From assembly GCF_003003795.1 (NCBI RefSeq), contig NZ_PVWK01000158.1:1-64000 (forward strand): a DNA stretch of 64,000 nt, in the 5' to 3' direction. The position numbers were made by a program, and so were the translations under genes. Shown here one piece after another: positions 60,084-63,873 of this stretch. Under the pieces are notes generated by a model. The model had not been told where the DNA came from. It saw only the letters and a program-made list of their open reading frames with translations, and made no database searches. Origin of the DNA: Stenomitos frigidus ULC18 (GTDB lineage: Bacteria > Cyanobacteriota > Cyanobacteriia > Leptolyngbyales > Leptolyngbyaceae). Numbering within the stretch: position 1 is the stretch's first letter; every line of letters starts with the position of its first letter.

Positions 60084-61784
60084 ATGTTGAGAGCAGTGAG
60101 GCTGAATTCGATCGCACCTGAATCTTTCTCAGAACAACCGCATGGGTTGGTAGCAACGGCACCGATCGCGCCATCACCATCCCCGATCGCAGCAAAGCAG
60201 GCGATTCGAACCAGTCTGCGGGCATCAACCCTGGATGGTGTGTTTGCGGCTGTTTTCTCGACCATCACGAGTGGGGTCTTACTCAGCAATTTTTTGGTGG
60301 AACTGCACGCCAGCCCGACGGAAATTGGGTTACTGTCGTCGATTCCTATGGTGGCAAACCTGATTCAGCCACTAGGCGCGTTTCTGGGCGATCGGGTGAA
60401 TAGCCGTCACAACTACTGCCTTTGGGTGTATGCACCGTCTCGCCTGCTGTGGCTCGTCCTGGTAGCAGGCATTGCCTTTGCTCACTGGTGGCACGTAGAA
60501 GCGCAGAGATTGGTTTGGTGGACGCTGGCGATCGTGTGCCTCACCCATTTTATTGGAGCCTTAGGCAGTGCGGTCTGGCTGAGTTGGCTTGCGGCTTTGG
60601 TGCCACGCCGTCTCCGAGGGCGCTATTTTGGCATTCGCAACAGTGCGGCTAGTCTCACAAATTTACTCTGCGTACCGCTGCTAGGTTTAGCAGTATCGGC
60701 GTTTCCCGGTGGCTCGCTGCAAGCCTTTGGGGTTGTACTGCTGTTGGGCGTTGTAGCAGGCATCATCAGTTTAGGCTTTCAATTTTTGATGGTGGATGTG
60801 AATCCGCAAAGGCAGCAGGAGGAGGAAGGGAGTGGGGAGTGGGGAGTGGGGAGTCGGGAGTCGGGCAGCCGTCAGCCGTCAACCGTCAGCGGTCAGGAAA
60901 CAGCAAACAGTGCGCCGTTGGTGATTAACCCTATTGGCTTTACAGGCGAAGCCGCAGACACTGACGGTAGAAGCCGTCAGGCATTGATAACGGATGATAG
61001 CCAGAATCCGCACCTTATATCACTCTCTACGCCCTACGCCCTACCGCCTTTTCTAAGAGACAAAAACTTTCTCTTCTTCTTGCTGTATTTCAGTGGGTGG
61101 ATGTTTGCGGTGAACTTGAGTGCGCCGTTTTTCAATTTGTATATGTTGGATAACCTGGCGATCGATGTCAGTTGGGTCACGATCTATACCAGCCTGCAAG
61201 CAGGGGCGACGCTGGTGATGCTAGTGGTCTGGGGCAGGCTTGCCGATCGGGTAGGCAATCGTCCCATTCTGCTTGCGGTTGGTATTTTGGTAGCAGTGAC
61301 GCCGCTCTTTTGGCTGGGCACAGGCGCTAACACGCTGTCTGTTTGGCTCTGGCTACCTTTGCTGCATGTGATCGCAGGAGCAACTTGGGCCGCGATCGAC
61401 CTCTGCAATAACAATCTTCAACTGGGCGTTGCGCCTGTACAACAGCAGGCATCCTACTTCGCCGTAGCCGCCGCGATCGCAGGGATCAGCGGTGCGTTGG
61501 GGACAACAGTTGGGGGTTTTCTGGCAGAATTTGCAGACTATGGCGGCATTCCGGGGTTGTTTGCACTGTCGGCGATCGTCCGGTTAGTCGCACTTCTGCC
61601 GTTAGTGCTGGTACACGAGCAGCGGGGACAATCGCTCCATCAAATGATGCAAGTACTTTTTCCATCCAAAGCAGCGCCCGCCTTAGAAACTGTGCCCGCT
61701 TACAGTCAGGCAGTGCTGTTGAAAGCCCAATTGGACGATGCGACACATTGCACAGTTGACAAATCCGTCACAATGGAAGAATGA
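60084..61784 (+). CDS. MFS transporter
   Basis: 566-residue carrier with about 11-12 hydrophobic segments in two halves. [38 protein letters not shown] resembles MFS motif A and surroundings, with a second copy in [14 protein letters not shown]. The central cytosolic loop (about residues 244-325) is enlarged by repeat-derived sequence ([19 protein letters not shown]). Substrate unknown. The stop codon overlaps the moaA start by four bases (ATGA), so the two are translationally coupled. Confidence 0.88.
60815..60900. repeat. Dispersed repeat insert in the MFS gene
   Basis: Tandem GGGGAGT units (about 60830-60865) are followed by CAGCCGTCAGCCGTCAACCG and GTCAGCGGTCAGG heptamers. These are the same classes as in intergenic regions; the reading frame is kept. 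Confidence 0.82.
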
Positions 61785-62767
61785 ACCAGGTTGACTATCT
61801 CCGCATTAGCCTCGTCGATCGCTGCAACTTCCGCTGCCAGTACTGCATGCCAGAAGGTGCCGATCTCACCTATGCTCTACAGCAAAACTTGCTCACGCAG
61901 GACGAACTGTTGCTGCTCTTGCATGAAGTGTTTATACCAGTGGGATTTACTCGCTTCCGCTTGACGGGCGGTGAGCCGCTGATTCGTCCTGGCATAGTGG
62001 ATATTGTGCGGGCGATCGCGCAGTTTCCCGAAACAAAAGACCTATCCATGACGACGAATGCCTTCTTGCTGGCAGGCATGGCGCAAGAACTGTATGACGC
62101 AGGCTTACGGCGCATTAATATCAGCCTGGACTCGCTGCAACCAGATGTGTTCGATGCCATTATTGGGCATCACGGACGATCTCGCTGGCAGCAAGTATGG
62201 GACGGCATCCAGGAAGCGTATCGAGTCGGCTTCAGCCCCTTGAAGCTTAACGTAGTGGTGATTCCTGGTGTGAATGATCAGGAAGTGTTGGATTTGGCAG
62301 CGCTTAGCATTGATCGCGAGTGGCACGTGCGGTTCATCGAATTTATGCCGATCGGCAACGATTATCTGTTTAGCGATCGCGGTTGGGTGAGTTCCGAAGA
62401 GTTACGACAACGCATTCGCGATCGCTGGGGACTGACGGATGGACAGGTGCGCGGTAACGGTCCCGCTGACGTGTTCAAAATTCCGGGTGCGAAAGGAACG
62501 CTCGGCTTTATTAGCCAAATGTCCGAATGCTTCTGCGATCGCTGCAACCGGATGCGCTTCTCTGCCGATGGCTGGCTGCGTCCGTGCCTGCTCAATGAAA
62601 CGGGTCAGCTTGATTTGAAAGCAGGATTGCGATCGGGCGTTCCCCTCCACGAACTCCGACAACAAGTGCGTGACCTGCTGATGCTTAAACCCGAAATCAA
62701 CTACAAAGAACGCGATTCTGGCACCACAGGCACCTACAGCCGCACCATGTCTCAAATCGGTGGATGA
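61781..62767 (+). CDS. moaA: GTP 3',8-cyclase MoaA
   Basis: Radical SAM enzyme for the first step of molybdenum cofactor synthesis. The SAM cluster motif is CNFRCQYC near residue 17, GGEPL follows, and the C-terminal cluster Cys are in [23 protein letters not shown]. Length 328 fits. It overlaps the MFS gene by four bases. A molybdopterin protein of the sulfite-oxidase type is encoded at 43878. Confidence 0.96.
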
Positions 62768-62829
62768 GTGATTAAGTCGTTGATTGAAAGGGAAAATTAA
62801 ACACTGTAGAGCGTTCAGGAGCATCAGCC

Positions 62830-63003
62830 ATTCCTACAGCAGCACAAACTCTGGAATGTTTTAGCGTCTGCTACAGTTTAACCAAGATGTATTTGCCCAT
62901 TTACATCGTTCGCATTGACGAGCGGACAGGGGATATCTTCATCTTGGCGGGTGAAGAGACGATTGTTTTGATTAACCGTGACGGTAAAAGGACATTCCCA
63001 TGA
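62830..63003 (+). CDS. DUF6888-like small protein, probable ATT start
   Basis: The first half of a 57-residue small protein with IPTAAQTLECFSVCYSLT, then MYLPIYIVRIDERTGDIF and ILAGEETIVLI. I recall this as the DUF6888 family, whose members start PT-x-AQ. No ATG, GTG or TTG exists before the internal ATG 62887, which would cut away the conserved N-terminus. ATT 62830 has AGGAG (62817-62821) eight bases upstream. The stop overlaps the next start as ATGA (63000-63003). If ATG 62887 is used, the product is 38 residues. Confidence 0.75.
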   Translation: MPTAAQTLECFSVCYSLTKMYLPIYIVRIDERTGDIFILAGEETIVLINRDGKRTFP

Positions 63004-63215
63004 GCCAACCCAATTTTCAAGAGATGAATCGGAAACAGTTGTTGTCCTATGTCTTTGACCATCGGGACGATCAAGACGCATTTTATGCCTTAATGGACAA
63101 ACTGACGGCGGCACCCCCCTTGGCAACAATGCCTCCCGCAAATGGACGGGATGAAACCGAGGAACTGCGAAAAATTCTGGATGACATTCGCAAAAAGCGC
63201 CAGCAGGAAGAGTGA
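63000..63215 (+). CDS. DUF6887-like small protein
   Basis: 71 residues, charged. NFQEMNRKQLLSYVFDHRDDQDAFYALMDKL is the conserved part, followed by a Pro-rich stretch and ETEELRKILDDIRKKRQQEE. I recall this as DUF6887, a family regularly encoded next to DUF6888 in cyanobacteria. The pair overlaps by four bases, as do many two-gene modules, but I see no specific sign of toxin-antitoxin function. Confidence 0.8.
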   Translation: MSQPNFQEMNRKQLLSYVFDHRDDQDAFYALMDKLTAAPPLATMPPANGRDETEELRKILDDIRKKRQQEE

Positions 63216-63285
63216 GCACGGTTATCGGGACTTACGCAGAAACTAAATATCCTTACTGTCTAAAGAGCTTGCTTTAAAGCGATCA

Positions 63286-63873
63286 GTGATTGATCAACCC
63301 TGGTTTGACCTTGAAGCACCAATTATTCCTGGGCTTTCTGCAGCGGGTTTTTCACTAGGAATGAATTTAAGGGAACTTGATCACGTTTTAGCTGCTGCTA
63401 AGATAGAGGAGATCTGCCCAGGCTTCAACTGCTTTAAAGAAGTCAAAAGTTGTAGTGAGATTCTGTACGTTAAAAACACATATCTGTCTTCGTTGTATTA
63501 CAGAAATGGTACGGTACGACTTGATTTCAACAGTTGCGGCGAACTCTACTGGATATTCTTATTCGCTGGTTATTGTGGCTCCTTTGGCTTAATTAAAATT
63601 GGCAGTTCAATGCATGAAGTGCAAGAGCAAATGCCGATTTTTTATGATGATAGCGATGAGATGTTCTATCCGGATCGAGAAGTTAAGCCAGACGTACCAG
63701 ATGGAATTGCCTTTATTGCATTAGAGGAGCCGGATGAGCATAGCCAACAATGGCAGGTTCTGGGATTTAGTATTCATGACTATGAACATGAGCGCTTTTC
63801 AATCGCCAGAAACGATATTTTGCAGCAGTATCTAAACCGTCCGGCTGCACACGAGCTCTATCAAGGTCGTTAA
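63286..63873 (+). CDS. Unrecognised 195-residue protein
   Basis: Cytosolic-looking acidic protein without signal peptide. Visible features are an N-terminal GLSAAGFSLGMNLRELDHVL segment, which resembles bacterial proteins of the 'G-IxLGM' SmpA/immunity-like type only loosely, and SFGLIKIGSSMHEVQEQM, an echo of the same pattern. This suggests two related halves. Codons are more AT-rich than neighbours. The start is GTG 63286. No family is assigned. Confidence 0.6.
   Translation: MIDQPWFDLEAPIIPGLSAAGFSLGMNLRELDHVLAAAKIEEICPGFNCFKEVKSCSEILYVKNTYLSSLYYRNGTVRLDFNSCGELYWIFLFAGYCGSFGLIKIGSSMHEVQEQMPIFYDDSDEMFYPDREVKPDVPDGIAFIALEEPDEHSQQWQVLGFSIHDYEHERFSIARNDILQQYLNRPAAHELYQGR

Follow-up and report, generated by a model that had tools for sequence, protein, structure and literature searches.

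In Stenomitos frigidus ULC18, the gene that leads a conserved two-gene module and encodes a protein of the DUF6888 family appears to begin with ATT. We propose, with a probability that we put at about 0.88, that Shine–Dalgarno (SD)-directed initiation at this AUU codon (position 62830 of the window, the whole 64 000-nt stretch of DNA analysed here) throttles the gene. AUU starts are already known elsewhere; what would be new, judging from sequence comparison, is such a start as a family-wide trait in a conserved gene pair. The features concerned are the following.

61781–62767, forward strand: moaA-like gene (radical SAM / Mob_synth_C, by Pfam), upstream of the DUF6888 gene
62817–62821, forward strand: SD sequence AGGAG, 8 nt before the ATT, present in all five genus orthologues
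62828–62829, forward strand: di-pyrimidine CC at –2/–1, a feature of AUU-type starts in the DUF6888 family
62830–62832, forward strand: ATT, putative start codon (from genus orthologues, the contrast between synonymous and non-synonymous differences, and the family survey)
62830–63003, forward strand: DUF6888 gene, 57 codons plus TGA (Pfam PF21828; predicted fold)
62887–62889, forward strand: internal ATG, the first canonical in-frame codon, rejected as start
63000–63215, forward strand: DUF6887 gene, ATG start (PF21826, E 3.4e-19)

The ATT codon at 62830 and its genus orthologues

The open frame that holds the gene (62788–63003, forward strand) begins after a TGA at 62785–62787. A preliminary description of this DNA had claimed that no ATG, GTG or TTG precedes the ATG at 62887 in frame, and that a family-like N-terminus is nonetheless encoded there. 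Both statements hold: none of the three codons is present in frame from 62788 to 62886, and the frame reads ...SGASA-I-PTAAQTLECF..., where I is the ATT at 62830–62832. The product matches PF21828 over profile positions 2–53 of 55 with a score of 90.4 bits, where the cut-off is 27 (E 6.5e-26), and the match starts at the proline directly after the ATT. The distance of eight bases from AGGAG to ATT was also correctly described, the gap being 62822–62829.

Among the matches listed, four of the six other genus genomes searched have a DUF6888 orthologue, at 79–94% identity (the listing gives best matches, and 20 further places from it were read). Comparison of the start codon across orthologues, a check that the preliminary description had proposed, gave ATT in 5/5 genus members, the window included; one of them, L043, carries a 6-nt insert that yields ATT CCT ATT CCT. 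Because four orthologues from other assemblies have the ATT, a sequencing error at 62830 is very unlikely. The moaA-like gene is also found upstream in three of the four other genus orthologue loci.

Codon differences were counted pairwise among the four orthologues that align without a gap (the window, L040, L041 and L042). The ratio of synonymous to non-synonymous differences is 5:33 in the 14 codons before the ATT, 11:6 from the ATT to the internal ATG, and 45:11 from the internal ATG onward. When L043 is added, the second figure weakens to 29:27 and the third to 100:38; these inclusive counts cover the two downstream stretches, and the upstream 5:33 refers to the four gap-free orthologues. 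Protein-type constraint thus seems, from these comparisons, to begin at the ATT. Together with orthologue conservation, SD spacing and the family pattern described below, this onset argues for ATT as the start codon, as first suggested.

The ATG at 62887 has in its favor that it is the first in-frame ATG, GTG or TTG, and translation from it would make the upstream similarity a non-coding relic or a 5′ leader. We give this reading very little chance. The stretch from the ATT to 62886 is more protein-constrained (11:6) than the one preceding it (5:33), and it holds P2, T3 and Q6, which are near-invariant in the family, as well as a predicted helix (residues 4–19) that an AlphaFold2 model with a mean pLDDT of 96.7 places ahead of three strands. 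In that model, a start at codon 20 is predicted to remove the whole helix along with the three residues. No SD-like 4-mer is present in the 20 bases checked upstream of this ATG, and of the 57 family members that have no canonical upstream start, only 12 have an ATG at the corresponding position. On the grounds of the missing SD-like 4-mer and the deleted helix, we rejected it as the start.

Several further observations concern the surroundings. No sigma-70-like promoter was found in 61700–63400, and the leader (62790–62870) folds no better than shuffled sequences (z 0.09). A 195-codon open frame with a GTG start lies at 63286–63873; it matched nothing in Pfam at E 0.01. The same genome has four more DUF6888 copies, on contigs C72, C1, C92 and C105 (L037, L036, L038 and L005), whose start types are an ATT preceded three codons earlier by an in-frame GTG, an ATT with CTG right after it, an ATG, and a TTG.

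Probable AUU-type starts across the DUF6888 family

Of 386 genomes sampled from the cyanobacterial phylum, at least 69 contain PF21828, with up to 14 matches per genome among the matches listed. The listing gives best matches, and all listed places were read except G233:C1:2861003-2861179, whose score is close to that of its neighbour. Our first set contained 148 distinct homologues, from which exact duplicates and three profile rows beginning past profile position 3 (L157, L139, and one of the two for the broken copy L050) had been dropped; a held-out set contained 53 previously unseen homologues, taken from among the lower-scoring entries of that listing. Codon 0 denotes the codon directly before the conserved P-T motif, and AUU-type denotes ATT, ATC, ATA or CTG.

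ATG, GTG or TTG stands directly before the P-T motif in 39 of the 148 first-set members, one codon up in 15, and only farther up in 47; the other 47 have no canonical start before an in-frame stop. An AUU-type codon occupies codon 0 or –1 in 46 of these 47 (including two that look broken, L110 with a TGA after the ATT and L050 with a frame change), and the last, L129, has ATT at –2. Ten of the 53 held-out members have no canonical start, and six of them have an AUU-type codon at 0 or –1. Three near-identical sequences (L204, L206 and L217) share with L129 an ATT at –2, which brings the held-out total to 9/10, three of them only via ATT one codon farther up, a position that entered the criterion only once L129 had turned out to carry its ATT at –2. 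The tenth, L213, has no AUU-type codon and carries an out-of-frame ATG.

For the pooled sets, 57/201 members have no canonical in-frame start, and 56 of these 57 have an AUU-type codon within the three codons before P-T, against a background of 82/456 (18%) for three-codon windows elsewhere in these sequences. After clustering, 28/29 fit at 70% identity and 7/8 at 50%. By first matching position, the codon is ATT in 44/57. Isoleucine codons at the start (ATT 37, ATA 4, ATC 3) are distributed differently from internal ones (126/50/84 in the same order), with a Fisher p of 7e-6 that is indicative, as the sequences are related. In-frame ATG is absent from the 56 codons read in 19 of the 57, and any canonical codon is absent from the first 20 codons in 14. 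A further 18/201 members with ATT at codon 0 are ambiguous because an in-frame canonical codon exists farther up, which in seven of them is a GTG three codons up. Many relatives carry ATG or TTG at the start position, and AUU is therefore not needed by the family. Taken as a whole, sequence comparison strongly supports the ATT start, and as a trait shared by much of the DUF6888 family it is no single oddity; the presumptive ATT start in the window is no chance mutation, having been kept over the genus orthologues and, along with the SD and the –2/–1 pyrimidines, over much of the family.

The SD varies along with the start codon. With a match of at least 4 nt at 5–10 nt from the start as criterion, an SD precedes 23/27 AUU-type starts at codon 0 and 17/19 at codon –1 in the first set, compared with 82/916 random ATT triplets as background, 1/15, 2/14 and 0/11 in the AUG-type groups, and 11/22 for TTG; AUU- and AUG-type members cluster on a tree, and so these tallies are not independent per gene. 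The clustering involves 7 changes and only 2 supported independent pairs, on a tree of 121 rows (rows more than 90% identical and short rows left out) that has few columns and little support. Among held-out members an SD is found in 9/9 of the AUU type and 5/25 of the AUG type, and L227 is an AUG-type member with a perfect SD. Spacing for codon-0 AUU-type starts has its mode at 8 nt (16 of the 25 having an SD). Pyrimidines occupy both –2 and –1 in 46/56 AUU-type, 3/64 AUG-type and 12/33 TTG/GTG-type members. The 16S 3′ end TGGATCACCTCCTTT was matched exactly in one genus member (G002) and was not found in the assembly of the window's own genome. In cyanobacteria, according to a passage of PMC5397173, SD genes make up a small fraction.

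These data bear on two other readings. Ribosomes might arrive by frameshift or read-through from a start farther upstream or in another frame, so that the isoleucine would be internal; canonical codons do lie upstream in some relatives, either in frame or out of it. We regard this as highly improbable, since many members have an in-frame stop 1–5 codons upstream, the 14 codons before the ATT in the genus orthologues lack protein-type constraint, and SD spacing peaks 8 nt from codon-0 AUU-type starts. Slighter still is the chance that the gene is decaying, its ATG mutated to ATT and its product lost or trivial. A gene most simply loses its ATG by mutation of the start codon, and relatives that are broken (L050) or carry stops (L110, L119 and L135) occur. 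Yet the ATT and SD are kept in 5/5 orthologues, the differences among the four gap-free ones are of purifying type, and 56/57 relatives without a canonical start are AUU-type even though a switch from AUG to AUU is a very rare event (1 of 61 358 ancestral AUG starts, in the figure given by a passage of PMC5622118).

The survey also yielded observations of separate interest. Four DUF6888 copies (L050, L110, L119 and L135) are apparently broken by a frame change or in-frame stop. The TTG before P-T is directly preceded by ATT or ATC in 7/22 members (L026, L066, L082, L149 and relatives), and L061, a close relative of TTG members, reads ATT TTA; from these sequences, the true start of those TTG members may be ATT rather than TTG. 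No AUU type was found at the best place of each of four plasmid records (five places in total).

The partner gene DUF6887 and initiation factor IF3

DUF6887 is the downstream partner in 144/148 DUF6888 loci. In the window its ATG overlaps the DUF6888 stop as ATGA, and a 4-nt overlap is found in 84/144 pairs. As a control, we took the canonical codon nearest the DUF6887 profile start, from three codons inside to the upstream stop: one is available in 144/144 (133 ATG, 10 GTG and 1 TTG), a count that concerns availability, use of that start being a separate matter. The main infC gene has in-frame ATG and GTG at its start in 7/7 genomes of the genus; the AUU of DUF6888 was therefore not carried over from infC, which we ruled out as a local precedent.

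We also surveyed a second IF3 (infC-like) paralogue at 19 distinct cyanobacterial loci (L189, L190, L195–L198, L254–L258 and L260–L267). ATC lies at, or at most one codon from, the apparent start in 17 of the 19, two of which (L195 and L262) have ATT just before the ATC, and by eye it generally follows a GAGG- or GGAG-like stretch. In 12 of the 19 loci the upstream sequence lacks a canonical in-frame start, and 11 of those 12 have the ATC; L265 and L267 do not fit this layout. The arrangement resembles that of DUF6888 in having an SD-like stretch followed by a non-canonical codon, and differs from it in that the codon is AUC rather than AUU and the product is an initiation factor. No report of this second copy was found in the open-licence literature. 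Since only one IF3 match was found in the genome that contains the window, the DUF6888 gene there does not require the paralogue.

It is conceivable, if rather doubtful, that many DUF6888 copies and the second IF3 paralogue belong to a cyanobacterial gene set with a shared initiation architecture that is co-tuned toward non-AUG starts by IF3 stringency. That architecture, an equally tentative proposal, would consist of GAGG or AGGAG, about 8 nt, pyrimidines at –2/–1, and AUU or AUC. If true, the level of IF3 or its paralogue would set the DUF6888 dose from many scattered modules.

Predicted structure, known AUU starts and the proposed brake

Fold and profile searches gave little indication of function. 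The DUF6888 model had no match in PDB or BFVD at E 0.001, and the DUF6888 sequence profile had none in the PDB up to E 10. The best viral structure match was an 82-residue uncharacterised protein of Gordonia phage OneUp (E 0.036, TM-score 0.90 over the query), which is uninformative as to function. VIA-align 2 returned Z up to 6.3 in rows unrelated to one another; likenesses to the MotA DNA-binding domain (Z 5.8, rmsd 1.8, 55 aligned) and to the RnlA toxin (Z 5.1, rmsd 3.0, 55 aligned) were too weak to assign a function. For DUF6887 (model pLDDT 76), the fold search gave nothing useful, and the 12 profile matches in the PDB, the best at E 0.0046 to an S100-A4 fusion, were taken for chance. No family of the PADLOC defence library matched, and PHROGs gave one weak match (E 0.27). 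DUF6888 and DUF6887 are two small, adjacent and overlapping genes, as in toxin–antitoxin pairs, and their patchy occurrence in many copies is likewise reminiscent of such modules, although no sequence similarity backs the analogy. Our guess would be a toxin–antitoxin-like or regulatory pair whose first protein needs to be scarce.

Under the proposed mechanism, translation of DUF6888 would start at AUU 62830 with initiator Met-tRNA, the ribosome being positioned by the AGGAG 8 nt upstream. IF3 rejects AUU starts, and initiation at this weak codon would be inefficient and probably IF3-sensitive. DUF6888 would then be made in small amounts, and the overlapping, AUG-started DUF6887 at a higher or separately set level. 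We infer, that is, an initiator tRNA that decodes AUU as Met, weak initiation, modulation by IF3, and a DUF6888 protein scarcer than DUF6887.

The E. coli gene for IF3, infC, has an AUU start with IF3 feedback; a 1996 paper by Sacerdot is among the references of PMC8557916. Like DUF6888 it has a conserved AUU start at which initiation is probably limited; unlike infC, DUF6888 (PF21828) does not encode IF3, so direct autoregulation does not apply. The preliminary description had called ATT initiation rare and known mainly from infC. Its rarity stands; the restriction to infC does not, given reports on pcnB, S. aureus cvfC1 and some genes of Nostoc sp. PCC 7120. The AUU start of E. coli pcnB, the subject of a paper among the references of PMC13009471, limits expression, as we propose for DUF6888, although pcnB is a single gene of known function and DUF6888 a multi-copy family. 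PMC13009471 itself gives S. aureus cvfC1 an AUU and ccpN an AUA start, both with strong SDs, and reporters yielding ∼10% of AUG output in poor medium. Like DUF6888, cvfC1 encodes a small protein (61 aa), is the first gene of its operon, and has a strong SD and a conserved AUU; cvfC1 and ccpN differ in being other, Firmicutes proteins with experimentally mapped starts, whereas the DUF6888 start comes from comparison. AUU-type starts in a cyanobacterium are documented by peptides for Nostoc sp. PCC 7120, where proteogenomics, in the account taken from PMC8557916, assigned ATA/ATT starts to eight revised genes and ATA to two novel ones. With the conserved-AUU-start class (infC, pcnB and cvfC1), the window's DUF6888 gene shares the lack of a canonical start, conservation among orthologues, and a strong SD at matching spacing. 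In the open-licence literature, neither the name DUF6888 nor DUF6887 was found, nor any report of an AUU start for the DUF6888 family; a search there for ATT start codons in cyanobacteria yielded only a plastid genome paper and otherwise nothing relevant by title.

AUU starts are commonly viewed as exceptional, with few examples known. In this one phylum, much of a multi-copy family seems to be AUU-started, with the SD and flanking bases varying alongside the codon, which offers tens of natural test cases for the mechanics of AUU initiation. Gene finders restricted to ATG, GTG and TTG would miss or truncate such genes. For the biology of the family, the ATT start suggests a built-in brake on DUF6888 production, and points to a protein pair whose first member may be kept scarce by the cell.
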